A stretch of 64,000 bases of DNA from Scilla litardierei (Eukaryota > Streptophyta > Magnoliopsida > Asparagales > Asparagaceae). The stretch lies in NCBI GenBank assembly GCA_030789695.1, contig CM061141.1:164205579-164269578 (forward strand). Reading direction: 5' to 3'. A program made the translations under genes and the position numbers. Under the pieces are notes generated by a model. That model ran no database searches and had not been told where the DNA came from. It saw only the letters and a list, made by a program, of their open reading frames with translations. Below, piece by piece: positions 14,375 to 60,251 of this stretch; the first letter of the stretch is position 1, and each line of letters begins with the position of its first letter.

Positions 14375-14434
<60 letters not shown>

Positions 14435-20242: not shown

Positions 20243-20281
<39 letters not shown>

Positions 20282-20788: not shown

Positions 20789-20813
20789 CCCTCCCCACCT
20801 TAGGAATGATTCC
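20789..20813 (-). promoter_or_regulatory. Polypurine tract of A2
   Basis: Minus strand CCTAAGGTGGGGAGGG directly before the LTR start TGTAACGG; priming site for plus-strand DNA synthesis. Confidence 0.85.
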
Positions 20814-20829
20814 GCCCTCGGAATCAACA

Positions 20830-21735: not shown

Positions 21736-21806
21736 CTGCACGATCCACGTTACATCACTATCTAAACTAGTAAAAGGAAATAGAAACGGAGAGTAAAAGA
21801 ATTTAC
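21736..21806 (-). other. Integrase intron of A2
   Basis: 71 bp, donor ATGGAG/GTAAAT, pyrimidine-rich middle, acceptor CGTGCAG/GAG. Joining gives RRYME then EIVRLHG, the usual integrase sequence; read through, it ends at a TAG. Element B has a 72-bp interval at the same codon. Confidence 0.65.
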
Positions 21807-22306: not shown

Positions 22307-24224
22307 CTATCCAGCCTTGATCCTACCCACGATTGTCGACTGTATCTGCATACACATCAACAAAGAGGTCTCTCCAGGAAAAATAATCTCAATACCAGAC
22401 TCACAAAAATCCTGCTGCAATCTCCACTGCGAAGTCAACATCATCACCGCTGGAAGTCTGCTCAGCACATCTGGAACCACATTCACCTTGCCAGGGTGAA
22501 ACTGCAAGTCAATCTCATAATCTGCCATGAGCTCTAACCATCGACGATGTCGCATGTTGAGCTCCTTCTGTGTAAAAATGTACTTCAAACTTTTTTGATC
22601 GGTGAAGATCTTCACCTTCTCACTCAGCAGGAAGTGCCTCCAAATCTTGAGCGCAAACACGACTGCAGCCAACTCCAAGTCGTGCGTCGGGTAATTCTTC
22701 TCATGGGTCTTGAGCTGACGAGAAGCATACACAACCACGTGCCCATGCTGATGCAACACACAACCGAGATCCTTTCCAGAAGCATCGCAAAAGATCTCGA
22801 ATCCTCCACTCCGATCAGGCACAGCAAGAACAGGGGCAGTCGTCAATCTCTCCTTCAGAATAGAAAAGGCCTTCTCACAATCATCGGACCAGATGAAAGA
22901 TACATCCTTCCTCGTCAGTCTGGTCATCGGCTCAGCAATCCTTGAAAAGTCCTTAATGAAGCGCCGATAATAACCTGCAAGCCCAAGGAAACTCCTGATC
23001 TCAGACGCTGACAGCGGAACAGGCCACTCTCTGATAGCCTTAATCTTCTCAGGATCTACTGAAATTCCATCCCCTGACACCACATGCCCGAGAAAAGCAA
23101 CACTGTCCAGCCAAAACTCGCACTTGGAATACTTAGCATACAAACGATGCTTCCGCAAAATCTCTAACACTGTCCTCAAGTGCGATGCATGCTCTTCCTC
23201 CGACTTTGAATAGATCAGGATGTCATCAATAAAGATAACGAAAAACTTGTCTAGAAAGTCGTAGAAGATCAGATTCATCAGGTGCATAAAACTACGGGTG
23301 CGTTGGTTACACTGAAAGGCATAACCACGAACTCGTAGTGACCATACTTTGTCCTGAATGCTGTCTTCGGGATATCTTCCTTCTTCACCTTCAGCTGATG
23401 ATAACCACTCCTCAGATCCAACTTAGAGAACACCCTCAATCCTCCAAGCTGGTAAAAAATGTCATCTATACGAGGCAAGGGATATTTATTCTTGATGGTC
23501 ACAGCATTCAGCTCCCTGTAGTCCACGTACATGCGACGCGAACCATCCTTCTTCTTTACCAGCAGTACCGGTGCTCCCCACGGAGACACACTAGGATTGA
23601 TGTAACCCTTTTGCAAAAGCTCATCCAGCTGCCTACGCAACTCCTCCAACTCAGCTGGAGCCATACGATATGGTGCCTTCGAAATAGGCTGCGCTCCCGG
23701 AATAAGATCGATCGAAAACTCGAGAGCTCGATCGGGCGGTAGTCCAGATATCTCCTCAGGAACGACGTCGTCAAATTCTCGCACCATAGCTGGTCTACTC
23801 TGCTACATCTGCATAGCAACAATCTCCATCGTTCTGGCCCGAAATCTGACAGGGCCAAGCGAACTGCTACCTCGACTGAACTCAAACACTGGATGCCCTG
23901 GAATCTCGAACACCACCTTCTTCCTCCAGCAATCGATCGTAGCATAGAAACTTGCAAGCCAATCCATCCCAAGGACGGCATCATAGTTGATGATGTCGTG
24001 GACAATAAAATCAGCGTAAAGCTCATGTCCACAGACCACCAAAGGGAAAGAATTGCAACCACGATGTACCGAGATCACGCCATTTCCTGTAACGATGTTC
24101 CAACTCTTGGGAAGAGGGGATGTCGTCAAGGAATGCTTGTCCACAAAGCTCCGGGATATAATGCACATCGATGCACCAGAGTAAAATCGGACTCGTGCAG
24201 AAAATGTGCAAACCAAAATCACAC
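22307..24224 (-). pseudogene. A2 protease, reverse transcriptase and RNase H
   Basis: From the N-terminus: protease with YSGASMCII, in which Tyr replaces the catalytic Asp found in B (DSGAS); RT with [22 protein letters not shown] and [10 protein letters not shown] (catalytic Asp pair present); RNase H with [12 protein letters not shown] and [10 protein letters not shown]. Damage: TAG at 23800-23802 and a frameshift near 23290-23305, where the RT frame moves between NAPVV and MHLMNL. The translation starts at the splice acceptor at 24225. Confidence 0.92.
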
Positions 24225-24351
24225 CTAACAGACAATCTAACAATCAAACCCTATTCTAGCAAACAATCATATGCAAGCAACCAAACATAATCTAACTAGC
24301 CAAAACTAACTAAGGAAGGAAACAACTAGGCTGAGGGTTACCTGCGATAAC
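24225..24351 (-). other. Gag-protease intron of A2
   Basis: 127 bp, donor ATCGCAG/GTAACC, acceptor TCTGTTAG/GTGTG. Joining gives VIAG then VILVCTFSARV leading to the protease. Unspliced, Gag ends 9 codons later at TAG. Intervening stops exclude simple ribosomal frameshifting as the only link. Confidence 0.7.
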
Positions 24352-25467
24352 CTCATCCACAGCCTTGCTCTCCACTGTCGTCATCAGGAAAGCCTGCCTC
24401 CTTGGCTGCATGGCCTGCTGGAAAGCCTGCTTCTGTGGAATGAGGGCTTCTCCACGTCCAGCAGGTACCGGTGCTCTCTACTGCAACGGCTGAGCTGCAA
24501 CTGGTCCTCTCTGTTGCTGAACTCCATCCGGTGCTCTTCGCATCTGGTTTGCATGCTGACAATCCTTCGCTGCATGAGTAGCGTCTCCACAAATCAGGCA
24601 CTGGCCCAGAAATCTCCTACACAGCTCCTTGATGTGACCAGTCTTGCCGCAGAAATGGAAAGTCTTCAGAGTAGGCCCACCTGGCCTCTTGAACTGCATT
24701 GGCTGGTTAGGCTTGAACCCTGGCCTAACCACTGCTCTGGCCTGCTCCATAGGCCTTTTCCCAGCTCCAGAAGTCTGCCCTCTCTTCTGGTTCGCAATCC
24801 GTTCCTGTCTCCTAGCAGCTACCAGCAACTTCTGATATGACTCCAAATCTGATGAAGACATCAGGCTCTGCAGATCTAGGGAAAGACCCTGCAGAAACCT
24901 CTGAGCTTTCTCCTCAGCATCCTGCACCATCTTCGGTGCGAAGCGACTCAGTCTGGTGAACTCCTGATGGTACTGGTCCACCGTCAGATTTCCCTGCTTC
25001 AGTTCAATGAATCGCTGTAACATCTCCCTCCTGGCAGCCTTCGGAAAGTACTCCTCATCGAACCTGGACTTGAAAGTAGCCCAAGGTATCGGCTTCACCA
25101 ACAGCTCCTCTTCTGCATCCCACCAGTTGCGGGCATTATCCCTGAGCTGCTTCTTCACCAAATCAACCCATCCAGCCGGGTTGTTCTTCGACATCTTCAG
25201 ATTATCTTCCATATTTCGAATCCACTCATCTGCAGCCAACGGTCCTTCAGATCCATCAAAATAGGCCGGGCCCAGCTCCCGAAACTGCTTCGCTCCCGGC
25301 TCGAAGCGAGGGGCATTCTAGGTATTCTAGGTATTCTGAAGCATACCATGTTGCACCTGCATCATCTGATGCATCATCCTAATGATCTCAGCATTGGTGT
25401 GCTCTCTATCCGGCACCGCATCACGGGAGGGCCTACCACCAGCTCGGGTCTGTCGTCTTCCTGCCAT
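24352..25467 (-). pseudogene. A2 Gag
   Basis: ATG at 25467 (MAGRRQTRAGGRPSRDAV). Capsid-like retrotransposon Gag domain (ARNWWDAEEELL, EEYFPKAARREML, LKQGNLTVDQYHQEF), basic linker, then two zinc knuckles. The first has lost its first Cys (FHFCGKTGHIKELC); the second (CLICGDATHAAKDC) is complete. Stops: TAG at 25318-25320 and 25327-25329 inside a repeated QNT-type triplet, and TAG at 24478-24480. Gag forms the virus-like particle and binds RNA. Confidence 0.9.
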
Positions 25468-25614
25468 CTAATGTCATAGGAAAACGATATAAATTAGACT
25501 CAAAGCTTATGACTCGGATATCGAAATTTATTTATTGGACATCCTATAATTACTATCGTTGTTCCGATAATTCGCAGTTGTAAAAGGGGACCTGCATGGG
25601 CCACCAACAAACCC
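25468..25614 (-). promoter_or_regulatory. Leader and presumed primer binding region of A2
   Basis: Next to the LTR end the element strand reads TTGGTGGCCCATGCAGGTCC. The same core, GTGGCYCATGCAGGTC, follows the LTRs of B and F. It is not the common initiator-Met site TGGTATCAGAGC; the matching tRNA was not identified. Confidence 0.6.
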
Positions 25615-28022
25615 AGTCACGCCTCGCTTCCCTAAAATGGAGGCGAGACGTGAGAAGGTCTGCTCAGACTTGGAGCTGTGAGGCTCCAGTCTGTAAAGCG
25701 TCTAGATTTAACCGAGTTCAGATCCTTGCAAATGTGAAGCAGAACAACAATAATAATAAGGAAAGAGAGACAGATAAAAATTCATTCAATCTCAGAATGT
25801 CCATAATAATTAAGTTCCATCATCACAGAAAAGCCACCAGGCTGGAAAGAAAAGAGTCTAAAAGGCCCAAGCATGGCCAACAAAAGTACAGAAAGTAAAG
25901 GTGATACGCATCGACAACTAACAGCAACCTAAAACAGAAGTAACTCAGAACAGTCTCTAAGACTGGTCACCGGTGTCCACAAACTTCTCGTCAAACGTGG
26001 GCTCAGGCTCGGCGTCAACGAACACCTCATCCTCAGCAATGGTCTCTGGCTCAGGGTCTAACATGTGACACCCAAAAGAGAGAGGGGCATATGTCAGCAA
26101 GTCTACAAAAGACTTGAGCAAGGAAACTAAAAGAAAAGTAAACAACCTAGCAGTTCTAAAATTTATGCAATGACATGGCAGTTATAGTATGAGTGCAACA
26201 GGTAAGGAAAACAACAAGTACAATAAGACAACTAGCATGGCATGGCAGGATTAGCAAGGCTACTAACATTCACATGGATTCACAAGTCACGTTTTCATGT
26301 CGTGCACAGAGTTTACACCTTACAGCTGAAGTGGTTGTATGGGCCCACTTCTACACTGAGTGGTCGCTTAACCCTATCCCAAACCCAGAGTTTATGCCTT
26401 ACAGCTGAAGTGGCTGTACGGGCACACTTCTACGCTGAGTGGTCGCTTAACCCTACCCCACCACGTGTATATGGACTGGCATCCATCTTCGGGAACACTA
26501 GCCAGGTAGTGTTATTGGCATAGGGTTGTGCTCGTAAAAGCAGGTGCCTAGCTTGAACAAGGGAGTACAAGTATGGTAGCGTGTGCTACGAATGCAACAT
26601 TCATGTATGGATGACATGGCATGTCATATTGTATTTAAAAGTGTATAGATAAGGAATTTAAACATGATAGGCAGAGATGCAAAGATGGCATGGCAGCATG
26701 AATGAAAGCAAGTAAAAGGGGTCGGATCTAGCTTCGTTGTCAAGCTAGATCAAGTGGGGTGTCGGATCTAGTTTTGTTGTCAAACTAGATCAAATAGGCG
26801 TCTAGGCAGCTATCATTTCACTGCCTAGTCTCTTTTACGCTACGATACAAAAAGTGGCCTAAAGCATGGCCTAAACAAGGAACGGGCAAGTTTCACTTGC
26901 CTACAACCTGAGGTCCGAAAACACCGTCCAAAAGTCCAAACTACCTATGTGCACAACTCCACCAGCCTACAGTCCCAATTTAAGTTATCTTGATTAGTGA
27001 ATCTAAACAATTAAAAACACCAGATTTTATCTTGTTTAACAGGCAAGGGTTGGGGATCCTAAGAGTGCAGAACGTTACCTCAACACGACGCGAGAGCTAC
27101 ACTGGCGTCGGGTAGCGACGCCAGGGATTGGAATAAAAGATCGTGCTCCTAGTCCAGATTCCAAAATAGATTCCTCGCTCGCCAAGTCTGGGCAGCAACC
27201 AGATCAACGAACCAAGATTCCAAAGCTAGAACGTGCGACGAAGGAGATACGACGTGTCGCAACGTCGTAATAGGCCAAACAGCGAAGGGGATCGCTGGAG
27301 GGGACCCATGGCAGTGCTAGGGGTCAATGGGGGACCCACAATATCTCTGGAGGGCTTGGGGGACCCACGGCTGCACTGCAGTGCGACGGATGCGGTGATG
27401 CGAAGAAAATCGTCGGTCGCAACGAGCCAATGCGGGGGTTCCTCTCGGTCAGACCGAGAGAATGCGGGCGCTTGGGTCGGTCGGGCGCTGCGGGTGTGGG
27501 TGCTGTGATGCGGAGGGCTGCAACGAGTGGGTCTTGGTGCGGAGCGGGGGATTCCCTCGGTCAGACCAAGCGGGGGCGTCGGTCGGAGCGATGGATGCAG
27601 TGCTTGCGAAGCGGGGCAGCTGCAATGCGGTGCGCTGCGATGCGGAGCGAGGGATGGCTCTCGGTCGTAGCGGGCCAATGCGAGGATGCGGGTCGGTCGG
27701 GGCGAGCGGATGCGGGGTTACAGCGATGCGGGGTTGCAGCGGAGGGCTGCAACGCGGAGTGATGCGAGATGCGGGAGCGGCTCTCGGTCAGACCGAGCGG
27801 ATGCGGGGGAAATCCTCTGTCTGGCCGAGCGGCTGCGGGGGTGCGTGAGTGGGGTTGGCTGATGTAGTGCGAAAATTTGAGGAGGGGAAAATGACGGCTG
27901 GGGTGATTTGCTTTGGGAAAATAGGTTAACCTATGGTGTATATATAGGGTAGAGGGGGTTTGACTAGGTCTAGGGTTTATAAAAGTATTTGTTTTAATAA
28001 AAATTGTAAAATAAGGATATAT

Positions 28023-28059
<37 letters not shown>

Positions 28060-28564
28060 CCCCCCCCCTCACAAGTGTGTGCGGCCAAGCAAGGGTGTAT
28101 GGGTTGGGTCAACTAGGTTTGGGGAGATAAAATATAATAGTAATTATATTAGGGATATAAGCCAATATAACTTAGGGTTTAAAAATATCATAGGTTGGGC
28201 CAAAAGTGCAAAATAGGTCAAATGAAGTCCAAAAATCGTGAAATAAATACTGGGGTGACCGGGACGACGAGAGAAGGAAAACTAAGAAGGCGGATCACAA
28301 TTTTGACGTCGAGGGACGAAACTAAAAATAGAAACGTCTCTCGTCAAAAGTGAAAATCGTGACGTCTCATCAAACAACATCAAATCGTGGGAGAATGACT
28401 CGAGAAATGTCGTTCCAAATTAATTCCACAATTTAATACTCTCAGGGACGATCACAACGATATATCACACCAAAGTGTTCAAAAACAAACAAAGTCAAAA
28501 ATAAATACGTGCACGGTCGAAAGCACGTGCACGAAGAAGGTACGATCGAAAACAGACCGTTACA
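25615..28564 (-). mobile_element. LTR3 of A (outer 5' LTR)
   Basis: Full LTR with U3 starting TGTAACGGTC at 28564, G-box-like GTGCACGTGC, a TGACGTC-type motif, GA repeat, TATA box, palindrome cluster, stem-loops and acidic exon, in that order. Confidence 0.93.
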
Positions 28565-31597: not shown

Positions 31598-32827
31598 TCA
31601 ATGTTGCTTCAAAATGTTTGGCGCATATGAGATGTGCTCGTCATGCTTCCCAATGAGGCCATGAGGTGGTAGTTTGCCTATCTCATCCAGTGGACCTTCA
31701 GCGGTCGCATCAATGTTGTTCATCCTTGATTGGTGCTCCAAAGATGCCTTCTTAATGTGCTCACGGATCTTGACGGCCTCTAGGTCGTAATCAATTCTAT
31801 CTTCCAGATATTGTTGAGGATGTGATGCATTAGGTGGTTCCTCGTCCAATACTTTCAGGTAGGCAGCCAATGCTTTATTATGTATGACATTGTCGTCATC
31901 ATCTATATCTCACCTTATAGGGTCCTTTAAGACCTCCTCGATGGTGAAGTCCTCAGCAACTTCAAACTCTACGAGCTCCAAATAACTTGCATCTTCATGG
32001 GAAAAACGTTCCTTCATCGGCTTTTTCAAGTGGAACTCTATCTCAATATTCCCAACATTCATCGATAATGTCCCTTAACGGACATCTATAAGGACTCCAA
32101 CTGTAGCCATGAAAGGACGTCCTAATATAATTTGAGAGCTCCCCTCCTCAGACATGTCCATGATCACAAAGTCCACCGGTACACTAATTCCTTCCGACAC
32201 TTGTAGAATGACGTCTCGAGCAATGCCTACCGGGTAGCTGACGGATTGATCTGCCAACTGTATACTTATAGCCATGGGCTCCAACTCTAGCCCGATGTTC
32301 AATCCCTTGAAGATGGAGAGCTGCATCAAATTAATGCTTGCTCCCAAATCGACTAGTGCTCTCATGATAGAGATGCCACCAATGGAGCATGGCACCGTGA
32401 AACTATCGGGGTCGGGAAGCATCTTTGGCAAGGTGTTCTTCAAGACTGATGTGCAACTATCTGCTAACATGTCAGCTTCTTGCGTCCTCATTCCCGCTAT
32501 CAAATCCTTCATGAATTTAGCATAAGTAGGGATCTCCATCAATACATCCATGAAAGTGATGTTCAAGTGAACACCATTTAGAAGCTCTATGAATTTCACA
32601 TATTTCATCTCAATCTTCGCCATGGCTAGTATTTGAGGATATGGAGCTGCAGGTCGACCTTCCTTAACTTTCTCGACATCCTTTGGTGTAGATTTCTGAA
32701 TAGTTTTCTCCACGAAAGGTAGAGTGCCAACCGGTACCGTAGCGATGGGAATAGCCAAAGGGATGGCTAATGACTCCTTCTCTGCAGCGCCAGATGGTTC
32801 TTCGACGTCCTTCTCCTCGTTCACCAA
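31598..32827 (-). pseudogene. D protease and linker (Athila)
   Basis: Athila aspartic protease with ALVDLGASINLMQ and ILGRPFMATVGV, followed by a linker (MNVGNIEIEFHLKK, IHNKALAAYLKVL). A TAA follows GVLIDVR near 32075 and a stop follows KDPIR. The reading ends at 31598, where RT should begin but does not. Confidence 0.8.
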
Positions 32828-32836
32828 TATGATCAG

Positions 32837-34409
32837 CTATGAAGCTATGAGACTCTCTTCATCTATGATTGTTGAGGGCTGTGGATCCACTAGCTTCGGT
32901 ACAGGTACCATAACTGTGTCTGTGGTCTTCCCTCCTCTCGTTGTCACTGCTACCACCGCATTTACATGGCCCCTTGGATTAGGCTCAGATTGAGCCGGTA
33001 GTTTTCCTTGAACCTTGGTAAGTTGGTTCATTTGGGCTGTCAACTGATCTACGGTGATAGAAAGCTGCTTCTGAGTAGCCACCAACTCCGCATTATACTT
33101 AGCTTGGGCATTGATGAAAGCTTCCAATGCCCCCTCCTCTCCTGATTTTGGTTCCCCCGTTGCTGATATGTTGTTAATACGGTTGACGGTTGTAGTGGCT
33201 CGGCGGTCTATAAGGCTCAGCTAGCCTAAACACATACTGCTGCTGCTATGGAGGTGGTGCTTGTTGTTGGGACAGAGGTTGTTATGGCCTTGGTTGAGTG
33301 GGTGGTTGTATCGCTCCGTTGGGGTTGCTGTAGGAGAATCCTAGATATGTCTTCCAGGCCAAATTTGACCATTATGGCCTTGGATTACTCCCATCACCCA
33401 ATATGTAGTTGATTTGCTCTGTTGGTACGTCCGTTCCATCAAAAGAATCTTCAATTGGAATGTACCTTTAATCCGTGTAATCTTCACATGATGTATAACT
33501 GGAGCCTTTGTAGATGTAGGAATAACACTCAACCTCCGTTCAATGCGAGCAACTTGCTTTGAGAGACTCTCAAGTTGCCCATCAAGATTTGTAGCTAGCT
33601 TCAGTTCAGATTGGCTTCCAACAGCACTCCTAGAAGATGTTGAGCGATCATCGCTCCATTGCTTATTGTTGGAGGCCATCTGCTCCAATAGTGATGTCGC
33701 CTCTTCTAGAAACTTGGCCAATAGTGCTCCATTAGCAGAAGCATCGATGATCATCTTTGTGTCAGACTTCAAACCATTGTAAAATCTCTGAATGATATCC
33801 CAATCATGTACTCCGTGATGTGGGCACTGATGTTGTAAATCCTTGAAACGCTCCCATGCTTCATATAAAGTTTCTTGTGGGAGTTGTGGTGCTCCAAAGC
33901 CTCACCATTTTGGATGGTGGATAGTAATTATTGACGAATGCTTGGGCTAGCTGCTCCCAAGTCTTGAATGTATTAGTAGGGTGCGCCTTCAACCAATAAG
34001 CTGCCTTGTCCCGAAGAGTGAATGGGAACGATCGAAGTTTGATGGCATCTTCACTCATATCTTTAACTTGAAAGGTATCACACTTTGCCAAGAACAGATC
34101 AATGTGGTGATTAGGATTCTCATGATGATGTCCATGGAAAGGATCCTGCTGCATCAATTGTATCAAGCTCGTCTTTAATTCAAAGTTGCATGCCGCTAGC
34201 TGCGGTCTCAAGATAGAAGAAATATTCGAAAGATTGGGCTTCATATAATCCTCAATATTGCTAGCACGTGGAGGAGATGTTGGTTGATCTGCCATTTGAT
34301 CCTCTAACAGTTGCTGCCTCCTTTCAGCTCTGAGTTTCCTTGTAGTTCTTTCGATCTCGGGGTCAAATTGTAGATCGTTGGGTCTCCCTAGACGAGTGTT
34401 CATGCACAA
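32837..34409 (-). pseudogene. D Gag (Athila)
   Basis: Athila Gag pieces: MADQPTSPPRASNIEDYM and NFELKTSLIQLMQQDPFHG (33861-34409), DAIKLRSFPFTLRDKAAYWL, then KSDTKMIIDASANG and SKQVARIERRLSV (33341-33772), then QKQLSITVDQLTAQMNQLT (32837-33127). Frame breaks lie near 33860-33900 and 33130-33340. No zinc knuckle was seen. Confidence 0.85.
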
Positions 34410-34526
34410 ACAACAAACTCAGAGAAAATATTAGTAACAAATTAAAGAATAAAAATACGGTAGGGTGAGAGGTGGATGGAGAAACCAACAATTCTCCAAC
34501 TAAGAAAAATAACCCAAGTAAATTGT

Positions 34527-34554: not shown

Positions 34555-35089
34555 TGTTCGAGCCCGCAAGTGCACGGTGTCGATGCTTTGTAATATAGAA
34601 AGATTGGTGATCCCACAGGGAGGCAATTGTTTAAGGTATTGGGCTTTATTTCAGAGTTGTATGATTTTTTTAGTTAAGGGGGTATCTAAGAAGGTTGTCA
34701 CAATAATCCTCACACAAATAATATCAATATAATGGAAACTATGGCATTAGGAGTCACCGCTAGGATCATTGGATGTCGATGCTAGGTTATAATTTCTAGG
34801 TTGGATTGGTTTTATAGGGTGAGATTATCGCATCTTAAATGTGGAATTCGTAGCCAACTATCGTTTTACTACTCATCTAATGTAACATATACATAGCCCC
34901 ACCATCGTGGATGGCCTTGCACGTAGTACGTGCATTACGATCGACAATTATTCTTAATCTCCGTTCATGCCACTATCGTGTATTAGAGCTTTGATCTGTG
35001 ATATGATGGCTCTTATTGATGCCACCATCGTAGATCACCAATTAGTTATATATGGCATTAGTGGAGAGCCTCAAAGCACGTGCCACTAT
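34555..35089 (-). mobile_element. D 5' LTR, inner part
   Basis: The LTR end is TGTTCGAGCCCGC on the plus strand. Contains several copies of GCCACTATCGTGGATCAC-like sequence; element B inserted inside one of them. Non-coding. Confidence 0.75.
35085..35089. repeat. Target site duplication of B, left copy (actat)
   Basis: Precedes TGTCACG at 35090; repeated at 45917-45921. Confidence 0.95.
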
Positions 35090-35429
35090 TGTCACGCCCC
35101 GCTTCCCAAAAGTACGGAGGCGAAGCGTGACTAAGGCCCGCTTAGGCCGGAGCTGAGAGCTCAGACCCAATAAGCTTCTGTGGTATTCCAAAACGAAGGA
35201 ACAGGTCCCTGCAAGTTAGTACGGAACAATAAAAGTACTGAAAGGAAAGAGCATATCATTTTATTCCAAACATAGACATCCAAAGTACTGAAAGTCGAAA
35301 ACGCCCGAAGGGCTACAACTGCAGAAAGGAAACTACCGGTGCAAGCACCCAACCTAGTCAAGAAAACAAAAAGTGCTACACACCCAATCTAAACTGGGAA
35401 AGAAACTCTGGATCAACAACGAGAGGCCT

Positions 35430-35571
35430 CTAACTCTGGTCCTCCTCTGGGTCGTACTCCGGATCAATGTCCTCCAGCTCCCCGTCTGCTGGCAAGTCCG
35501 CCTCGTCGACGTACTCCGGCTCAACACCTGACGTACAGTACCAAAGAAGGAAACTGTACGTCAGGTAAAGT
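35430..35571 (-). CDS. Putative acidic exon in B 3' LTR
   Basis: After a TTTTTGTAG/AC acceptor the frame gives a hydrophobic part (LYLTYSFLLWYC) and an acidic tail (GVEPEYVDEADLPADG, ending EEDQS stop). The B 5' LTR copy at 43274-43416 keeps the frame with mainly conservative changes. It resembles the A exon in plan and at the end (DQS). Function unknown. Confidence 0.5.
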
Positions 35572-35909
35572 CTACAAAAAGTGGTCAGACTCTACTACAA
35601 GTGTATCAACTTTTAGACAACAATTTACTGGTTGATTAGCATGCTGGGGTTATAACTGAGTAACAAAAAGAAGTAACGTAGCAGGAAAGTAAAACGTAGC
35701 AAGTAGTAGTCGTAGTGTGTGCTACCAACTACGGGACTAACCTACAGGTGTCAAGACAAGTCGGTACGTGACGGGACAAGACGAGACAAGACAAGTGAGA
35801 CACAAAAGGGTTCACGCCTTACGGTTCGAGGGGGATCAGACCCTCTTGTCGTGCGCACGCTCAACCCAACCCCAAACCCCAAGTATGACAAGACAAGATA
35901 AGCACGACA

Positions 35910-36078
35910 AGGGATCACTCACTCTAGCTTGGCGAGTGCCCTATTGCCCTCTGGGCTGTGTATCACGACAAGGGATCACCCACTCACTGGTGAGTGCCCT
36001 ATTGCCCTCTGGGCTGTGTATCAGTACAAGGGATCACCCACTCACTGGTGAGTGCCCTATTGCCCGCAGGCTGTGCAA
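35910..36078. repeat. ~66-bp tandem repeat in B LTR
   Basis: Three units containing GGGATCACCCACTCACTGGTGAGTG and CCCTATTGCCC; the copy in the other LTR (43738-43880) has an internal deletion. Confidence 0.85.
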
Positions 36079-36174
36079 GACGGGACGGGACGTGACAAGA
36101 CGGGAAGGGTTGTTCTAGGGTGTCCACACACACGCACACACATGATAGCCCTACGATGTCAAAAGATGTTGTCA

Positions 36175-36241
36175 GGCTCAGACTTCGTCGTCAAGTCTGA
36201 GCCGTCAGAGGTCGTCCCGGACGCTATCATTTCACGTCCGG
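36175..36241 (-). other. Two stem-loops in B 3' LTR
   Basis: GGCTCAGACTT/AAGTCTGAGCC with loop CGTCGTC (36175-36203), and CCGGACG/CGTCCGG with loop CTATCATTTCA (36217-36241). The loops equal those of A; the stems do not, yet both pair. Confidence 0.8.
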
Positions 36242-38103
36242 TTCTCTTGGTTCACAGTTAACAGTTCTAACAATCTAGGGCCTAAGCACGGCCAAAAGTG
36301 CAAGTGGATACACTTGCCTGCGATGGCGAGTGTGTCGTCCTCTCGAAGCGTCTCGTCCAAGCGTCTCGTCCGCGGAAGTCCGTCTGAAATAGCGACACGA
36401 CGACGGTGTCAGGTCTCAATTTCATCAAATCCTATTAAGGTTCGCTTCTAGGTTATCGGGACCATCCTATTCGTCAAAAGTCACATTTTGATGTTTCAGC
36501 CTTATCGACGAATCTATCCTATGTGCACAGTCAAAAAGAGTCCGTTCGTCGATTTTCTATATTTGTACAACATTTTACTGGTGCTGGAAAGAAATTTTAG
36601 TTCAAATTGTCGACTTTTAATTTAGGGTTCAATCAGCTATTGTGGGGGTTTCTACGAGTTCGGAGGACCAAACTTTACAGGGGTTCGTCGTAGGATGGAA
36701 GTCGTGTCTGAATGGAGAACTCCTCGGTTTCAAATCTGGTCCACGCACGAATTCCCAAAAGCTGAAACTTGCGACGAAGGCCTACGACGTGTCGTAACAT
36801 CGTAGACGGCAATTCCACGAAGTAGAACACCCAAGTGGGGCCCACAGCAGTGCTAGGGGTCAATGGGGGACCCACAACACTTCTGGAGGACTTGGGGGGC
36901 CCACGGCAGCAGTTGGTGTGGAGGATGCGAAGTTGCGACGATCGGCCGTCGGTCAGACCGAGCCGCTGCGGAGAAATCTCTCGGTCAGACCGAGAGATCA
37001 CAGTGGGGGGTCGGTCGCGTTACAGCGGAGCACGGTGCGGAGTGCGGAGCGTCAGTCGGGTGCGGGGATCTCGTCAGTCGAGCGCTTGGTGCGGGGTCTG
37101 CAGCGGAGCGGGGTTGTAACGGAGCGCTGCAGCGTACGGATGCGGGGAGCGGGATCGGTCAAACCGATGGGATCCATCGGTCGCAGCGCTTGCGGAGCGG
37201 GGTTGCAACGTTGCAATTTGCAACGTTGCGGAGTGGTTGCGGATGCGGGGCGGGGCTTCGATCAGACCGGGAGGCACTCTCGTCGTAGCGAGCGGCTGCG
37301 GGGCTTGCAGCAGATGCGCTGCAAGCGGGGCGATGCGGGAGCGGGCCTCGGTCAGACCGAGCGGATGCGGGGGGTTTGCTCGGTCTGGCAGAGAGAATGC
37401 GGGGAGATGGCTGGTGCGGATGCTGCTGCGGGGTGCGTGAGTTTGGAAAAGAAGTTTGGCGGCTAGGGTTTGTGTGGCTGCGAAAATAGCTTAGCCTAGG
37501 GCTTATATAAATAGAAAAGAGGGTTAGGGTTAGGTCTAGGGTTTAGGAGATTAATCAAAATAATTTAAAAATTAAAAATACTAAAATTAACTCTCCCTCA
37601 CCCTCTCGCATAGATGTGTGCGGCCAAAAAATAGCTAAGCTTTGGTCAAAAATTATTTTGAGAGTTATTATTATATAGGAATTTTATTGAAATTAAAATA
37701 CTTATAAAAGTAGGTTTTAAAATTATTTAAAACTTACTCAAAAATGGAAAAATAGGTCAAATTAAGTCTAAAAATTGTAAAATAAATATTAGGGTGATTG
37801 GGGCGACGAAAGAAAGAGAACGAAGAAGACAGATCTAAATTTCGACGTCGAGAGACGAAACTAAAAATAGAAACGTCTCGCGTCAAAACAGAAAGTCGTG
37901 ACGTCACATCAAATAAGATAGAATCGCGGAAGAACGACTCGAGAAATGTCGTTCCAAAATAGTTCCACAATCTAATACCCTCAGAGACGATCACAACAAC
38001 ATATCACATAAAAATGTTCAAAATCAACTAAAGTCTAAAATAAACACGTGCACGATCAAAAGCACGTGCACAAAGAAAGTACGATCGGAAACCGACCGTT
38101 ACA

Positions 38104-38128
38104 TCCTCCCCAACTTAGAAATGATTCC
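38104..38128 (-). promoter_or_regulatory. Polypurine tract of B
   Basis: Minus strand TCTAAGTTGGGGAGGA directly before TGTAACGG. Confidence 0.88.
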
Positions 38129-38144
38129 GTCCTCGGAATCAACA

Positions 38145-39050
38145 TCAAGCACTACCCGGGAAAAGATGCGGGAAGCGCTCTCTCATATCATCCTCACGCT
38201 CCCAGGTGGACTCTCCAGGTGATCCGTGACGCCACATCACTCTCACCAAGTCGACTATCTTATTCCTCAACTGCTTCTGTCGACGGTCCAAGATCTGCAC
38301 AGGCTGCTGGTCGTATGTCAGGTCCGGACGAACTGTAATCTCTGAGAAATCAACCGTGTGCGACGGATCGCTGACGTACCGATGTAGCTGAGATACGTGG
38401 AAAACGTCGTGGACTCCCTCCAAAGACGGTGGCAGAGCAAGGCGGTAGGCCACTGCTCCCACACGCTCTAGCACATCGAAAGGCCCAATATACCTTGGAC
38501 TAAGCTTTCCCTTCTTCCTAAAACGAATAACTCCGCGGTTCGAAGAAATCTTCAGGAAGACGTGATCTCCAAGCTGGAACTCCAAGGGTCTCCTCTTGGC
38601 ATCTGCCCAATGCTTGAAGCGATCCTGTGCAACTCTAAGCTTCTCCCTGATGTCCCTCACGACATCCACAGCTTCCACTATCATCTCCGGACCCAACAGC
38701 TCCCGATCTCCGATGTCATCCCAGCTCAGTGGTGATCGACATTTCCTTCCATATAAGGCAGCAAACTGCGCCATGCCAATGCTCGCCTGGTAGCTGTTGT
38801 TATATGAAAACTCCACTAAGTGAAGATGGTCCTCCCACGGTCCCTTCAAATCGAGCGTGCAAGCTCGCAGCATATCCTCCAGAATCTGAGTAGTCCTCTC
38901 TGACTGGCCATCGGTCTGCGGGTGGTACGCCATGCTGAAACTCAGACTCGTACCCAAATTCTCCTACAGACTTCTCCAGAACTGAGATGTGAACCTCGTA
39001 TCTCTATCAGACACGATGCTCACAGGGACTCCATGTAAGTGTACAATCTC
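38145..39050 (-). pseudogene. B integrase C-terminal half and chromodomain
   Basis: Begins after the intron with [17 protein letters not shown]. Candidate catalytic residues are in SDRDTRF and GQSERTTQ. Then come PLSWDDIGDRELLG, the integrase C-domain (DAKRRPLEFQLGDHVFLK) and a chromodomain-like end (MWRHGSPGESTWERED). One TAG at 38964-38966 interrupts SLQENLGT-type sequence (CAG to TAG); otherwise open for about 270 residues downstream. Confidence 0.92.
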
Positions 39051-39122
39051 CTGCACGTACACGGTCTACATCACAACCAACTCAAAGAGGAAATTAAAAG
39101 AGAAGTAAAAAAGAAATTTTAC
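39051..39122 (-). other. Integrase intron of B
   Basis: 72 bp, donor CTGGAG/GTAAAA, T-rich body, acceptor TACGTGCAG/GAG. Removal joins RKYLE to EIVHLHG between complete codons. The unspliced frame stops at TAG after about 18 codons. Confidence 0.68.
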
Positions 39123-39728
39123 CTCCAGATATTTCCTCGTCAAAGCTTCCGTAGACTGGCCCACTCGGAATGGGATAAAGTGCGCGGACTTGGTCAATCG
39201 ATCTATGATCACCCAGACTGCGTCGTTCTGCCTCGGGGTCCGAGGTAAACTAGTCACGAAATCCATCGTAATATGTTGCCACTTCCACTCCGGAATAGGA
39301 AGCGGCTGCAGCAACCCAGCAGCACGATGGTGCTCAGCCTTCACCTGTTGGTATATCAAACACTTGGCAACGCTCCGTGCCACACTCCTCTTCATGCCAA
39401 TCCACCAATAGTTCAGATGGAGGTCCTTATACATCTTGGTGCCTCTAGGATGTATAGAATACGGCGAGCTATGAGCCTCGATCAACCGCTCCTCCCGAAC
39501 ATCACCTGCAGGTACGCAGAGTCTGCTGTCGTACCGCAGCGAACCATCCTCATGAATCACGAACTCCGTCCGTAGTCCAGCTTCAACCTGCCTCCTGATC
39601 CTCTGCAGTTTTGGATCTCCTGCCTGTGCTGCCTTGATCCGATCCACGATCGTGGACTGAATCTGCAAATTCATGAATGAAAGAACCACACCAGGTAGGA
39701 CGACCTCCAAATCCATATCTCTCAGCTC
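39123..39728 (-). pseudogene. B integrase N-terminal half
   Basis: Zinc finger region HSSPYSIHPRG ... KCLIYQQVK, in which the second Cys is Tyr (A keeps Cys), then MDFVTSLPRTPRQND and RLTKSAHFIPF. It follows the RNase H frame after one TAG (39729-39731, CAG to TAG). Confidence 0.9.
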
Positions 39729-41554
39729 CTACTGAATCCTCCAGTCAGCAGTATGCATCATAGCAGTGGGAAGTCTACTCAAAGCATACGGCACTACGTT
39801 CACCTTCCTCGGATGATACTGCAAATCAATCTCATAGTCAGCCATGAGCTCTAACCATCGCCTCTGACGCATGTTAAGCTCCTTCTGCGTAAAGATGTAC
39901 TTCAAGCTCTTGTGATCGGTGAAAATCTTCACACTCTCACCTAGCAAGAAGTGCCTCCAAATCTTCAGTGCAAAAATCATCGCTGCCAACTCCAGATCGT
40001 GCGTCGGGTAATTCTTCTCATGAGTCCTTAACTGACGAGAAGCGAACGCGACCACGTGGCCATGCTGATGCAAGACGCATCCTAGGCCCTTCCCTGATGC
40101 ATCATAATGTACTTCGAATCCTCCGCTTCGATCCGGTACTGCCAACACCGGTGCTGTGGTCAATCTCGCCTTCAAGATACTGAAGGCCTCCTCACAAGCA
40201 TCTGACCAAAGAAACTCCACATCCTTCCTCGTCAGCTTCGTCATCAGCTCAGCAATCTTCGAGAAATCCTTGATGAACCGCCGATAATAGCCTTCTAAAC
40301 CAAGGAAGCTCCTGATGTCTGACGCTGACTGCGGAGTCGGCCAATCTCTGACTGCTCTGACCTTCTCCGGATCCACAGTTATGCCATCACCGGACACCAC
40401 GTGCCCCAGGAATGCGACTCTGTCCAGCCAAAACTCGCACTTGCTATACTTGGCATAAAGCTTGTGTCGCCTCAGCGTCTCCAGCATTGTCCTCAGATGA
40501 CAGCTGTGCTCCTCCTCAGACTTCGAATAAATAAGAATGTCGTCAATGAAGATAACGACAAACTTATCTAGGAAGTCGTAGAAAATCAAGTTCATCAAAT
40601 TCATGAACACAGATGGAGCATTGGTCACACCGAAAGGCATGACCACGAACTCATAATGCCCATACTTCGTCCGAAATGCTGTCTTTGGAACATCATCCTT
40701 CTTCACCTTCAACTGATGGTATCCGCTCCTCAAGTCCAACTTCGAGAAGACTCTCGAACCTCCAAGCTGATCAAAGATATCGTCGATACGTGGCAGCGGA
40801 TACTTATTCTTCACCTTGACAGCATTCAATCCTCGATAGTCCACGCACATCCTGCGGGACCCATCCTTCTTCTTCACAAGCAAAACTGGCGCACCCCACG
40901 GTGACACACTAGGGTGGATGAAACCCTTCTGTAGCAACTCATCTAACTGCTTCCGCAGCTCCTCTAGCTCAGCGGGAGCCATACGGTACAGCGCCTTCGA
41001 TATCGGTTGCGCTCCCGGCATAAGATCAATACCAAACTCTAAAGCTCTGCCGGGTGGCAAACCTGAGATATCCTCTGGGAAGACGTCGTCGAAGTCTCTG
41101 ACGACTGCTGGTCGCTCGATCTCCATCTCCATCTGCATGGCTGCAACAATCGACACCTCTGGCTTGGCCAGATATCTGATGGGCCCAAGCGACTCGTCTC
41201 TGCTGCGAAACTCGAACTCCGGATGGCCTGGAATCCGGAACACCACCCTCTTGCTGTGACAGTCGATCGAGGCTTGGAAATCTCCCAACCAATCGATGCC
41301 AAGAACGACATCGAAATGTGGCAGATCGTGGACAATGAAATCTGCAAAGAGCTCATGTCCACTGACCACCAAAGAAATCGATCGACATCCCAAGTTCAAT
41401 GTCACCACTCCGTTCCCTATGGTGATGTCCCAACACTTAGGAAGTGTATGGGTGGGAATGGAGTGCTTTGTTACAAACCTCCGGGATATAATGCACATAG
41501 ATGCACCGGAGTCGAACAAAGCCAAGGCCAGGTGAGAGGACACTAGAATGGTGC
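39729..41554 (-). CDS. B protease, reverse transcriptase and RNase H
   Basis: Open for about 608 codons from the splice acceptor. Protease with [12 protein letters not shown] with [58 protein letters not shown] and [10 protein letters not shown]; RNase H with [19 protein letters not shown] and [11 protein letters not shown]. The active-site motifs appear complete. It ends at TAG 39729-39731 before integrase, probably a mutated Gln. Copies element RNA into DNA. Confidence 0.95.
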
Positions 41555-41663
41555 CTAAGATATAAACAACTACGGTCAAACCAAGCTACTCTAACAAACA
41601 AGTCAACAAACAACACAAATAATAAGATCTAACTATAAAAGAAAGACTAGAATCAAGAGTTAC
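41555..41663 (-). other. Gag-protease intron of B
   Basis: 109 bp, donor ATTGCAG/GTAACT, T-rich, acceptor ATATCTTAG/GCACC. Removal joins VIAG to [13 protein letters not shown] in phase 1, as in A. Unspliced RNA stops at TGA two codons past the junction. The protease frame is also closed upstream by TAG. Confidence 0.75.
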
Positions 41664-42810
41664 CTGCAATAACTCCATCCAGCTCCTCAGTCTCAACAGC
41701 TGTCATGGTGTAAGCCGGCCTCTAGGGTTGCGCTGCTCGCTGAAACATCTGCCTCTGTGGCACAAAGGTTGGTCCATGAACAGCAGGTCCTCTCTGGACT
41801 GGGGCAGGCGCTCTCATCTGCAGCGGGGCTGGCGCTCCAACAATAGCATGACGAGCTCTTGGACACTCCTTCACAGCATGCGAGGCATCTCCACAAACTA
41901 ATCATAGTCCCATCTTCTTCCTACAGTTGGCCTGAACATGTCCAGGCTTTCCGCAGAAGTGGCACGGGCCCTTGCCCTGAATCTGAACTGGTGCTCCAGG
42001 CCTCTTGAATGACACCGTCTGAACTGGCCTCATCACCGGCCTAGCAGGTGGCTGGTACTGCTCCATAGGACGCTTCCCTCTATCAGCTGAAGGATCAGGT
42101 AGACGCGATATAATCTCATGATTCTTCGCAGCATCTAGCACCTCCCTCATAGTCGTGAAATTTACCGAAGACGTAGAAGCCTGAATCTTCGGGCGCAGTC
42201 CCTGACGAAAGCGATCAACTCGCTTCTCCTCCTTCCTTACCATATGCGGGGCAAAACGACTCAACATCTCGAACTCAGCTTCATACTCCTCGACAGTCAT
42301 ATCCCCCCGCTTCAGATCTATAAACTTGCTCAACAGTTCCCTCCTAGCAGACTTGGTGAAATACTTGTCCTTGAACATAGACCTGAAGGTCTTCCAATCC
42401 ACTGGCTTCTCAAGACGCCTCTCCTCGATGCGCCACCAGTTCCTAGCATTCTCCATCAGCTGCATCTTCGCTATCTCCACTCGGGTATCGTCAGGAATCT
42501 TCGCAGCAACTAACTTCTCCTCCGTGCTCTGGATCCACTCGTCAGCAGCTAGGGGTCCCTCCTTCTCCGAAAATGTCCTCGGCTGGAGCTCATTGAACTG
42601 CTTCACTCCTAGAGCAGCTCGTGGGGCAGGCGGAGGTAGTGGTGGTGCAACTGGAACAGCCTGGGCAGCACGCTGGGACTGCTGAACCAACTGATGCTGA
42701 ACAACCAGCATCTCTCTCATCACACCCAAAAACTGACGGAACTCTCCGCCCTGATCCTCCGTAACTCCATCTCCTGAGCTCCCCGATCGGGTAGTACGTC
42801 GTCTTGCCAT
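41664..42810 (-). pseudogene. B Gag
   Basis: ATG at 42810 (MARRRTTRSGSSGDG). Gag domain with ADEWIQSTEEKL, ARNWWRIEERRLE and LKRGDMTVEEYEAEF; basic linker with GKRPMEQ; first zinc knuckle CHFCGKPGHVQANC complete. TGA at 41902-41904 falls on the first Cys of the second knuckle (followed by LVCGDASHAVKEC), and a TAG lies at 41722-41724. It continues to VIAG at the splice donor. Confidence 0.92.
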
Positions 42811-42934
42811 CCTATTGACAGAAAGACATAAATTAGACTCGTACAATTACTGGATGATAATAAAATGAAGTTCAATACTTCGATTGTTCCGTATTTGCAG
42901 AAGGATGGGACCTGCATGAGCCACCACCAAAACC
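42811..42934 (-). promoter_or_regulatory. Leader and presumed primer binding region of B
   Basis: Next to the LTR: TTTTGGTGGTGGCTCATGC then AGGTCC, shared with A and F. No common tRNA match recognised. Confidence 0.6.
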
Positions 42935-45916
42935 TGTCACGCCCCGCTTCCCAAAAGTACGGAGGCGAAGCGTGACTAAGGCCCGCTTAGGCCGGAGCTG
43001 AGAGCTCAGACCCAATAAGCATCTGTGGTATTCCAAAACGAAGGAACAGGTCCCTGCAAGTTAGTACGGAACAATAAAAGTACTGAAAGGAAAGAGCATA
43101 TCATTTTATTACAAACATAATCATCCAAAGTACTGAAAGTCTAAAACGCCCGAAGGGCTACAACTGCAGAAAGGAAACTACCGGTGCAAGCATCCAACCT
43201 AGTCAAGAAAACAAAAGGTGCTACACACCCAATCTAAACTGGGAAAGAAACTCTGGATCAACAACGAGAGGCCTCTAACTCTGGTCCTCCTCTGGTTCGT
43301 AATCCAGATCAATGTCCTCCGGCTCCCCGTCTGCTGGCAAGTCCACCTCGTCGACGTACTCCGACTCAACACCTGACGTACAGCACCAAAGAAGGAAACT
43401 GTACGTCAGGTAAAGTCTACAAAAAGTGGTCAGACTCTACTACAAGTGTATCAACTTTTAGACAACGATTTACTGGTTGATTAGCATGCTGGGGTTATAA
43501 CTGAGTAACAAAAAGAAGTAACGCAGCAGGAAAGTAAAATGTAGCAAGTAGTAGTCGTAGCGTGTGCTACCAACTACGGGACTAACCTACAGGTGTCAAG
43601 ACAAGTCGGGACGACAAGACAAGTGAGACACGAAAGGGTTCACGCCTTACGGTTCGAGGGGGATCAGACCCTCTTACCGTGCGCACGCTCAACCCAACCC
43701 CAAACCCCAAGTATGACAAGACAAGACAAGCATGACAAGGGATCACTCGCTCTAGCTTGGCGAGTGCCCTATTGCCCTCTGGGCTGTGTATCACGACAAG
43801 GGATCACCCACTCACTGGTGAGTACCCTATTGCCCTCTGGGCTGATCACCCACTCACTGGTGAGTGCCCTATTGCCCGCAGGCTGTGCAAGATGGGACGG
43901 GACGTGACAAGACGGGAAGGGTTGTTCTAGGGTGTCCATACACACGCACACACATGATAGCCCTACGATGTCAAAAGTTGTTGTTGTCAGGCTCAGACTT
44001 CGTCGTCAAGTCTGAGCCGTCAGAGGTCGTCCCAGACGCTATCATTTCACATCCGGTTCTCTTGGTTCACAGTTAACAGTTCTAACAATCTAGGGCCTAA
44101 GCACGGCCAAAAGTGCAAGTGGATACACTTGCCTGCGATGGCGAGTGTGTCGTCCTCTCGAAGCATCTCGTCCAAGCGTCTCGTCCGCGGAAGTCCGTCG
44201 GAAATAGCGACACGGCGACGGTGTCAGGTCTCAATTTCATCAAATCCTATTAGGGTTCGCTTCTAGGTTATCGGGACTATCCTATTCGTCAAAAGTCACA
44301 TTTTGATGTTTCAGCCTAATCGACGAATCTATCCTATGTGCACAGTCAAAAAGAGTCCGTTCGTCGATTTTCTATATTTGTACAACATTTTACTAGTGCT
44401 GGAAAGAAATTTTAGTTCAAATTGTCGACTTTTAATTTAGGGTTCAATCAGCTATTGTGGGAATTTCTACGAGTTCGGGGGACCAACCTTTACCGGGGTT
44501 CATCGTAGGATGGAAGTCGTGTCTGAACGGAGAACTCCTTGGCGTCAAATCTGGTCCACGCACAAATTCCCAAAAGATGAAACTTGCGACGAAGGCCTAC
44601 GACGTGTCGTAACGTCGTAGACGGCAATTCCACGAAGTAGAACACCCAAGTGGGGCCCACAGCAGTGCTAGAGGTCAATGGGGGACCCACAACACTTCTG
44701 GAGGACTTGGGGGGCCCACGGCAGTAGTTGGTGTGGAGGATGCGAAGTTGCGACGATCGGCTGTCGGTCAGACCGAGCCGCTGCGGAGAAATCTCTCGGT
44801 CAGACCGAGAGATCACAGCGGGGGGTCGATCGCGTTGCAGCGGAGCGCGGTGCAGAGTGTGGAGCGTCGGTCGGGTGCGGGGATCTCGTCGGTCGGGCGC
44901 TTGGTGCGGGGTCTGCAGCGGAGCGGGGTTGCAACGGAGCACTGTAGCGTGTGGATGCGGGGAGCGGGATCGGTCAGACCGATGGGAGCCGTGGGTCGCA
45001 ACGCTTGCGGAGCGGGGTTGCAATGTTGCAAGTTGCAACATAACGGAGCGGCTGCGGATGCGGGGCGGGGCTTCGGTCAGACCGGGAGGCGCTCTCGGTC
45101 GTAACGAGCGGCCGCGGGGCTTGCAGCGGATGCGCTGCAAGCGGGGCGATGCGGGAGCGGGCCTCGGTCAGACCGAGCGGATGCAGGGGGTTTGCTCGGT
45201 CAGGCCGAGAGAATGCGGGGAGATGGCTGCTGCGGATGCTGCTGCGGGGTGCGTGAGTTGGGAAAAGAAGTTTGGCAGCTAGGGTTTGTGTGGCTGCAAA
45301 AATAGCTTAGCCTAGGGCTTATATAAATAGAAAAGAGGGTTAGGGTTAGGTCTAGGGTTTAGGAAATTAATCAAAATAATTTAAAAATTAAAAATACTAA
45401 AATTAACTCTCCCTCACCCTCTCGCATAGATGTGTGCGGCCAAAAAATAGCTAAGCTTTGGTCAAAAATTATTTAGAGAGTTATTATTATATAGGAATTT
45501 TATTGAAATTAAAATACTTATAAAATTCGGTTTTAAAATTATTTAAAACTTACTCAAAATGGAAAATAGGTCAAATTAAGTCTAAAAATTGTAAAATAAA
45601 TATTGGGGTGATCGGGACGACGAAAGAAAGAGAACGAAGAAGACGGATCTAAATTTCGACGTCGAGAGACGAAACTAAAAATAGAAACGTCTCTTATCAA
45701 AACAGAAAGTCGTGACGTCACATCAAATAAGATAGAATCGCGGAAGAACGACTCGAGAAATGTCGTTCCAAAATAGTTCCACAATCTAATACCCTCAGAG
45801 ACGATCACAACAACATATCACACAAAATGTCCAAAATCAAATAAAGTCTAAAATAAACACGTGCACGATCAAGAGCACGTGCACAAAGAAAGTACGATCG
45901 GAAACTGACCGTTACA
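42935..45916 (-). mobile_element. B 5' LTR
   Basis: Same layout as the 3' LTR, with scattered differences that date the insertion. TATA box near 45319-45330; leader intron 43417-44493 with a strong donor CCCCG/GTAAAG. Confidence 0.95.
44494..45140 (-). CDS. Sense ORF in B 5' LTR (216 codons), possible exon 1
   Basis: Starts about 185 bp downstream of the TATA box and runs to the putative donor. Arg/Pro-rich with repeated SDR motifs from the DNA palindromes, then a less repetitive end (VFYFVELPST, LRHVVGLRRKF, RLPSYDEP). The stretch RGPPKSSRSVVGPPL resembles RGSPKPSRDIVGPPL in A. It would continue in frame into the acidic exon (43274-43416). Whether it is translated is unknown; a chance ORF in GC-rich sequence is possible. 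Confidence 0.35.
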
Positions 45917-45921
45917 ACTAT
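45917..45921. repeat. Target site duplication of B, right copy (actat)
   Basis: Follows CCGTTACA ending at 45916. Confidence 0.95.
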
Positions 45922-58673: not shown

Positions 58674-60251
58674 ATATGGGTTCGCCCCGGTCTAACCGTC
58701 TCCCCGGTCTCAACGATGAACGCAGCGTTGTCTCTTTCACGAATGAGTCTCCTTCCATTATGGATATGGTAGGAACGCATCGTGACGGAGAGAATCGCAA
58801 TAGTTGTTCTTTTCACGTTAGGGTCTTCTGCCATTACGGATATGGCAGGAACTCTCCGTGACGGGAAGAACTTACCGTTCATATCGCCAAACTCACGCTC
58901 CTCATGGATGCTGAGTCTCCATTCAATTGAGAATGTGAACTCTCTTCATGTAGAGAGTGAAGTTTGCGGCCTTGAAAACGTGTTCTCTTCATTTTTTTGG
59001 CACACGGCCATTGAAGCAAAACCGTTTTCTCGATGAACGGGTGCTTCATCGGAGAAGACGATGGTGGTTATTTTCAACGGAGAAGATGAAATTTTTGGTG
59101 CATGATCACCATGGCCATATGGGCTATGGAGGCAATGCATCCCCCCTCCCCATGCAGAGGGGGTTGGCTACGGCCAATAACAACCACGGCTACCCCTCCG
59201 GCGGGGGGTGTGCGGCCAACCCCATGCAAGGGGGTGGCCGGCCATGGCCATATGGGCCATGGCCGGCCCTGGCCAAAAAGGGCCATGGTCGGCCCTGGCC
59301 GGCCCCGGCCGGCCCTGGCCGGCCCCGGCCGGCCCCGGCCAGGGGGCCCTGGCCGTGGCCAGGGCCTGCCCTGGTCGAGGCCAGACCAGGGCCAGGAGGC
59401 CCTGGCCGGCCTCGGCTAGAGCCAGGGGCCGGCCTGGCTGGCCCTGGCAGGGGCCAGGGCCGGCGCCCTGGCCTCAGGCCAGGGCCTGGTTGACCCTGGC
59501 CTCAGGCCAGGGGCCTGGCCAGGGGCCCGGCCAGCCGGCCCTGGCAGGGGCCAGGGCCAGCGCCCTAGCCGGCCCTGGCCCCTGCCAGGGCCACGGACGT
59601 TCCTGGCAGTGTCCAGGGCCACTGCCGGCCCTGGCCGAGGCCAGCGCCAGGCCATTGCCGGCACCGGTCTCGGTCAGTGCCGAGCCCCGGTTGACCCTGT
59701 ATTGGGGGGGCTTGCATGAATGTGACATGCATAGCCAGCCCATACGGGGCCGACGGCAGTCATCTGCGGCAAAATTCTCCTATAGGGGGGAAGCGCCTGG
59801 ATCCATACGGGAGCAGATGACGATGGCTTGCAGAAAAATCCCCTCAAGGGGGCATCCGGCCTTGGCACGGCTACGGCTAAATCCTGGCAATGGCCAGGGA
59901 TTGCCGTATATTTCACAAGTATCATAAGGGTACTAGATTGAAATATCGCATTTTTTTTGAAAAATACGTTTTCAAAAACGCTTTTCCGCTGCAAAGTACT
60001 ATAAGAGTACTATCGTTTGATAAGTGAGGGGGAAATATCGAAGTTGTTCTAGATGGTGATTGGGATCGTAGAGACCTTTCCGATTCTAGAGCAACATCTT
60101 CAATATTTTTCGAAAGTAACTTATCAAATATAATAATATCATTCTAAGTGGGATATTCCAAGCGGGAGTGATATTTATGTATAAGAATTTTATGCAATAA
60201 TTTTTGATCGAACCTTCGGTTTTTGGTCTTTTGCAGCAGTTTAAAGTTAAA
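58674..60251 (+). other. Long leader of G with GC-rich repeat
   Basis: Contains a ~80-bp direct repeat (around 58750 and 58829, ATTAYGGATATGG ... GTGACGG) and a very GC-rich run of GGCCCTGGCCGG-type units (59206-59690). Long ORFs across the latter are compositional. No gene. Confidence 0.75.

Follow-up and report, generated by a model that had tools for sequence, protein, structure and literature searches.

Plant LTR elements generally lack introns, Ogre and EVADE being among the exceptions that the available text of one study names (PMC12786077). In the Copia elements BARE1 (PMC3735527) and EVADE (PMC12786077), splicing is described in the accessible parts of both papers as making Gag in excess of Pol, and spliced Copia transcripts are likewise mentioned for sunflower in what is available of PMC7730604. 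Bagy2, Ogre and CRR are the other plant Gypsy elements with splicing that the accessible text of PMC3735527 lists, and that of PMC9289625 contrasts an orchid element with the putative intron of Ogre. In its available portion, a study of Beta chromoviruses makes no mention of splicing and names an intron only as an insertion site (PMC3605345). Among the titles and abstract openings that our searches of open-licence papers returned, none names an intron between Gag and protease for a chromovirus, which does not prove its absence.

Here we describe two related families of chromovirus-type elements, A and B, from a 64,000-nucleotide stretch of a plant genome (hereafter the window). We consider it highly probable that a short, U-rich, U2-type GT-AG intron parts Gag from protease-Pol in both of them, is spliced in part and thereby sets the Gag:Pol ratio. 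Like the intron of Ogre (Ty3/gypsy, Tat lineage), it parts a polyprotein and its removal gives a single frame: 29 of the 32 intronless copies that we examined keep an open frame through 41 codons spanning the junction. Unlike Ogre, in which the intron lies between GAG-PROT and RT, here it precedes the protease; its length in the window is 109-117 bp, and the elements that carry it have a chromodomain-like end. We read it as working like Ogre's intron at a different junction, and do not class the elements as Ogre. CRR, a centromeric chromovirus, is likewise a plant Ty3/gypsy element with spliced transcripts, as we propose for A and B; its splicing removes the RT region, whereas here the intron is at the Gag-protease border. 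As in BARE1 and EVADE, splicing would be a route to an excess of Gag over Pol. However, in the accessible accounts of those two elements splicing yields a Gag-only RNA from one long frame, whereas the frames predict here that the spliced RNA encodes Gag-Pol and the unspliced RNA Gag.

Bianca, a member of the Copia superfamily and in this unlike A and B, resembles them in having two ORFs with a short gap between. According to the available text of PMC6317226, most plant LTR element groups encode one polyprotein; the two ORFs of Bianca lie on average 172 bp apart, a unique expression strategy is suggested for it, and splicing experiments are cited for Ogre only. In Asparagus officinalis, the protein of LOC109833769 (P0017) has the same protein order, 63% identity in protease-RT and VITG-KVLVSS at the same site; unlike the copies described here it reads through the site, in a database gene model that is possibly annotation-spliced. 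Another protein of this species (LOC109838678, P0021) jumps from ..NDQVIT into the protease at the same border. Searching with the Gag protein returned four distant matches, and a scan of viral contigs gave no confirmed relative.

The Gag-protease border of elements B and A

Both elements lie on the minus strand. Their features in the window are the following.

Element B
35085-35089, target-site duplication ATAGT
35090-38103, minus strand, 3' LTR
38145-39728, minus strand, integrase pieces in two further open frames
38145-38963, minus strand, SH3_Tf2-1 and a weak chromodomain match
39066-39728, minus strand, integrase zinc-binding domain
39729-41554, minus strand, protease-RT-RNase H exon (RVP_2, RVT_1, RT_RNaseH), no ATG before the catalytic DSG
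41663-41555, minus strand, putative intron of 109 bp in phase 1 (GT at 41663-41662, AG at 41556-41555)
41575-41579, minus strand, branch-point-like YTRAY motif TTGAC, its A 22 nt from the intron 3' end
41664-42810, minus strand, Gag from the first ATG (42810) to the donor, with a capsid match (PF03732) and two in-frame stops
42935-45916, minus strand, 5' LTR, TG..CA
45917-45921, 5-bp target-site duplication ATAGT

Element A
22307-24224, minus strand, protease-RT-RNase H region, frame broken, like that of B by tblastn, one piece matching RVT_1 and RT_RNaseH
24225-24341, minus strand, putative intron of 117 bp in phase 1 (CAG/GTAACC ... TGTTAG/GT), coordinates corrected
24243-24247, minus strand, branch-point-like YTRAY motif TTGAT
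24342-25317, minus strand, Gag region with an open frame at 24478-25317 (PF03732), broken between this frame and the donor
16445-16561, minus strand, identical duplicate of the putative intron in the tandem copy A'

Element B occupies 35090-45916, and its TG..CA LTRs are about 95% identical to each other. The copy in the window is defective, its Gag containing two stops and its Pol being split into several open pieces; that of A is defective as well, its frames being broken. At 11976-28501, A forms a tandem of two near-identical internal regions (A and A') and three LTR copies, an arrangement as left by unequal recombination, in which 300-base internal pieces of A and A' are 100% identical. 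Domain matches in A comprise gag, RT, RNase H and SH3_Tf2-1. At the expected end, PF00385 matches B with an E-value of 7.8e-5 (23.0 bits) and A with 4.2e-5 (23.8 bits), both just below the Pfam cut-off of 25.1. These weak chromodomain matches speak against the Tat lineage of Ogre, which has no chromodomain and carries an additional RNase H, and the lineage is apparently another one. A Tekay/Del-type label is plausible, given the chromodomain-like end and the LTRs of about 3 kb, which presumably fit that clade. Elsewhere in the window, pieces of another Gypsy-type element (Retrotrans_gag twice, aspartyl protease) adjoin B outside its LTRs at 32075-34418 (minus strand), a Copia element with two long overlapping frames (gag, Pol_BBD, integrase, RVT_2) lies at 60201-63547 (plus strand), and adjacent frames with a FAR1 DNA-binding domain and a MULE transposase domain at 4470-5855 (minus strand) belong to a Mutator-like/FAR1-type gene or relic.

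The original prediction had placed a GT..AG interval of 109 bp at 41555-41663 in B, which is exactly what we find on the minus strand. The donor reads CAG/GTAAC and the acceptor CTTAG/GC, and the junction as a whole, on the minus strand, ..GAT GGA GTT ATT GCA G/GTAACTC..TATCTTAG/GC ACC ATT CTA. The codon after Gag's ..VIA is split in phase 1, directly upstream of the protease motif LFDSGAS. The interval in A needed revision: its acceptor end at 24225 holds, whereas the donor end given at 24351 (127 bp) does not. The stretch 24225-24351 starts with GTTATCGCAG, 10 bp upstream of the donor, which follows the first base of the G codon of VIAG; the true donor is at 24341 and the length 117 bp. In the duplicate, 16445 is equally retained and 16571 corrected to 16561. 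With this correction A has the same layout as B, the codon after ..VIA being interrupted in phase 1 before the protease, and the claim that the interval follows the VIAG set in phase 1 and joins Gag to the protease is borne out by the frames of both.

Left unspliced, Gag would end within two to nine codons as predicted, after the tail NS and a stop in B (2 codons) or NPQPSCFLP and a stop in A (9 codons). Since 117 is a multiple of 3, Gag and protease share one frame in A, with stops between them, four in the copy in the window. In B the two frames differ, and the TAG that had been said to close the protease frame upstream is found inside the intron. No ATG precedes the catalytic DSG in the Pol frame of the copies in the window, and only removal of the intron would connect this frame to Gag.

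Genomic copies with and without the intron

The donors of B and A are the best of 36 and 32 GTs, respectively, in the surrounding 501 bp, with 8 and 7 of 9 matches to the consensus CAG/GTAAGT. The intron T content is 51-53% in copies of B and 45-49% in copies of A, against 18-34% in the 300-base flanks of the window. A YTRAY motif stands 22 nt from the 3' end in all 10 B copies and 20 nt from it in 26 of the 29 A copies. The marks of a U2-type intron, i.e. GT..AG ends, donor consensus, branch-like motif and U-richness, are therefore all present. The introns of A and B are homologous, aligning with a score of 27 against a mean of 3.3 (sd 2.5, maximum 22) over 2000 shuffles. A chance GT..AG is ruled out by the rank of the donors among the local GTs and by this alignment.

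Among 39 intron-bearing genomic copies (10 of B and 29 of A, the duplicate L014 dropped), compared as the original prediction had proposed, GT is kept in all 39 and AG in 38. These copies were picked by similarity to intron-containing queries, and the presence of the intron in them is no independent test. In every one, both the Gag frame and the protease frame are closed inside the intron. The claim of two families with the intron stands, and further subfamilies exist.

The plant genome of the window (3.68 Gb) gave 5067 first-look candidates for B and 7175 for A, of which 40 each were scored. The joined-exon pattern of B (26 bases) occurs at 2 genomic places and that of A (30 bases) at 35, both with up to 3 mismatches; the reversed controls occur at none. 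We examined all of the B places and 30 of the 35 found for A, and by construction of the search none of the 32 has an extra base at the junction. The deletion boundaries share the three nucleotides AGG, leaving their position ambiguous by 3 nt. Intronless A-type places are not rare, and therefore the intron is not indispensable. Relatives with an uninterrupted frame, which had been expected to count against an intron, thus exist, yet they favour it because several sit among intron-bearing copies and lack precisely the predicted intron.

One such copy, L011, is a recent insertion. When its 501 bases were searched against the genome, 37 of the 40 scored places matched at 95-100% identity on each side but were split at the junction by 113-117 bp (110-116 nt as read, plus 1-3 overlapping query bases). 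The three unbroken matches were L011 itself, L012 (85%) and C1:70561616 (83%). Introns read in six of the 37 split relatives measure 113-117 bp, each GTAA..CTTAG. L011 differs from L073 and L074 by one mismatch in 501 bases and by the lack of exactly their 116-bp GTAAC..CTTAG. The element was read from both ends, with the part from pol to the 3' LTR taken in incompletely; it has TG..CA ends and a target-site duplication, CTCAG. Comparison of the LTR ends shows 3 differences in 870 bases and 1 in 910, and a further 37-base match that overlaps the second LTR stretch is an internal repeat. At a rate of 1.3e-8 per site per year, the insertion would be about 0.1 million years old. The intron-bearing relatives have apparently been active recently, since they are 95-100% identical to L011, and some of the 37 may be segmental duplicates rather than independent insertions. 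Near-identical L011-type copies lie on contig C5816 near 109, 247, 400, 545, 707 and 860 kb, i.e. about every 150 kb, suggesting a large segmental tandem array, and their spacing on C3601 is similar.

For L043, 22 of the 40 scored places were unbroken and 18 were split by 109-112 nt plus four overlapping bases. Its best unbroken relative besides itself among these 40 is L057 (92%), and the split, intron-bearing relatives reach 96% on both sides (e.g. L084). A tree of 83 rows requires at least five changes of intron state, three of them forced by starred branches; one row, L086, is under half filled, its acceptor (ATAG) having been missed in extraction. The changes fall at L011, at L012 with L079, at L043, at L057 and at the main intronless A group. 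L011, L043 and L057 sit among intron-bearing copies. Branch support around L043 and L057 is only 22-93%, and the two are likely separate intron losses. In an earlier, smaller tree, which omitted L014, L023 and five outliers, 24 intron-bearing A copies formed one clade (support 99.5) nested in intronless ones. Taken alone, that tree would read as intron gain in A, a reading put in doubt once the intron-bearing relatives of L043 were added; state counts alone cannot separate gain from loss. A protein tree with intronless copies basal in both families is distorted by frameshifted rows and was not relied on.

Age of the intron and alternative explanations

Between A and B, the introns diverge by 0.50 and fourfold sites by 0.84. 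Within the two families the corresponding values are 0.05 vs 0.12 and 0.03 vs 0.08, so that the rate for introns is about 0.4 of that for fourfold sites. Comparing intron-bearing with intronless members, family by family, gives fourfold divergences of 0.37 and 0.30 (rows kept: 24 of 30 intron-bearing and 27 of 30 intronless for A, 10 of 10 and 2 of 2 for B). By this rough clock, the age of the intron is apparently close to that of the split of A from B, because its divergence accrued at the lower rate, and greater than that of the splits from the intronless groups; the clock favours loss for the older intronless groups also. Comparison of intron-bearing copies of A with those of B gives a dN/dS of 0.16 over the first 200 codons of Pol and 0.25 at the Gag C-terminus, from 120 random pairs each with dS near saturation (1.7 and 1.5) and with broken frames dropped (leaving all 10 B rows for both regions, with 23 of 29 A rows for Pol and 28 of 29 for Gag). 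These ratios point to purifying selection on both sides of the intron, and the Pol value implies that these lineages produce Pol and use it.

Many LTR elements use recoding, and programmed frameshifting, stop readthrough or ribosome bypassing could join Gag to Pol beside a fortuitous GT..AG; in A, moreover, both frames are the same. We give this almost no credence and reject it on the frames, as the original prediction had done for plain frameshifting or readthrough: the copy of A in the window would have to pass four stops and that of B both to shift and to get past a TAG, all 39 intron-bearing copies have a closed protease frame, and copies lacking exactly the GT..AG would be left unexplained. 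Also very improbable is that the intronless copies are DNA deletions between AGG repeats or never-interrupted ancestors and the stretch a spacer in dying elements. For a single copy taken by itself, a microhomology deletion is formally possible, the boundaries sharing AGG, and the smaller tree nests intron-bearing A copies in intronless ones. However, distinct subfamilies of A and B share exactly the same junction, L011 (with its own target-site duplication), L043 and L057 lie among intron-bearing copies, and a Pol under selection needs a route to translation.

Two further alternatives leave splicing itself in place. The intron might have moved between A and B by recombination instead of being inherited from their ancestor, as the basal position of intronless copies in both families (in the distorted protein tree) and in A (in the DNA tree) could indicate. 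This is improbable and not favoured, because A-B identity beside the intron is no higher than farther away, and because the intron divergence of 0.50 exceeds the fourfold divergence between intron-bearing and intronless copies. Alternatively, the intron may be spliced with no regulatory role: gained once in an ancestral element, tolerated and slowly being lost, the Gag:Pol ratio unaffected. We regard this as unlikely, though it carries more weight than the other three. Intronless lineages do exist and at least one has multiplied; of 125 proteins scanned (P0001 included, 120 being the best of 7605 relatives), 66 have the protease motif and most run uninterrupted upstream of the site, in gene models that may be annotator-spliced. 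Against it stand the apparent age of the intron, the recent activity of the intron-bearing relatives of L011, and the need of splicing for the Pol fusion, so that splicing efficiency should affect the ratio.

Proposed mechanism and implications

A spliceosomal-type intron joining Gag to the protease, as first proposed, thus remains the best reading, given the donor, the acceptor, the branch-like motif and the exact intronless copies among intron-bearing ones. Splicing in vivo is very likely, because reverse transcription of spliced RNA leaves such exact intronless copies. Host spliceosomes would remove the intron from part of the element RNA; the unspliced RNA would be translated into Gag with its short extra tail and the spliced RNA into a Gag-Pol polyprotein, products that we infer from the frames. 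The intron would thereby set the Gag:Pol ratio, a function that, like the partial splicing and the translation products, we infer. None of the 37 nearest scored relatives of L011 lacks the intron, although an intronless query favours intronless copies, an indication that retrotransposition usually takes unspliced RNA as its template; the intron would persist for that reason. Spliced RNA would occasionally be packaged and reverse-transcribed, giving intronless copies with Gag-Pol across the junction in one frame.

More tentatively, and as a possibility to which we would not commit, the intron may be an ancient, selectively kept ratio switch of a chromovirus clade, whose lineages repeatedly and irreversibly flip to a single-frame Gag-Pol through retrotransposed spliced RNA. 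If so, each loss of the intron would repeat a natural test of the Gag excess that an element requires, and some means to export and package unspliced RNA preferentially would be implied. How single-polyprotein plant LTR elements make excess Gag is often unclear, and a Gag-protease intron would be a clear physical answer, in elements that have been amplified to high copy number. The same genome holds recent, near-identical copies minus the intron, a matched comparison for splicing efficiency, Gag:Pol ratio, packaging choice and transposition success, and from the rare intronless copies one could gauge how frequently spliced RNA gives rise to a new insertion.
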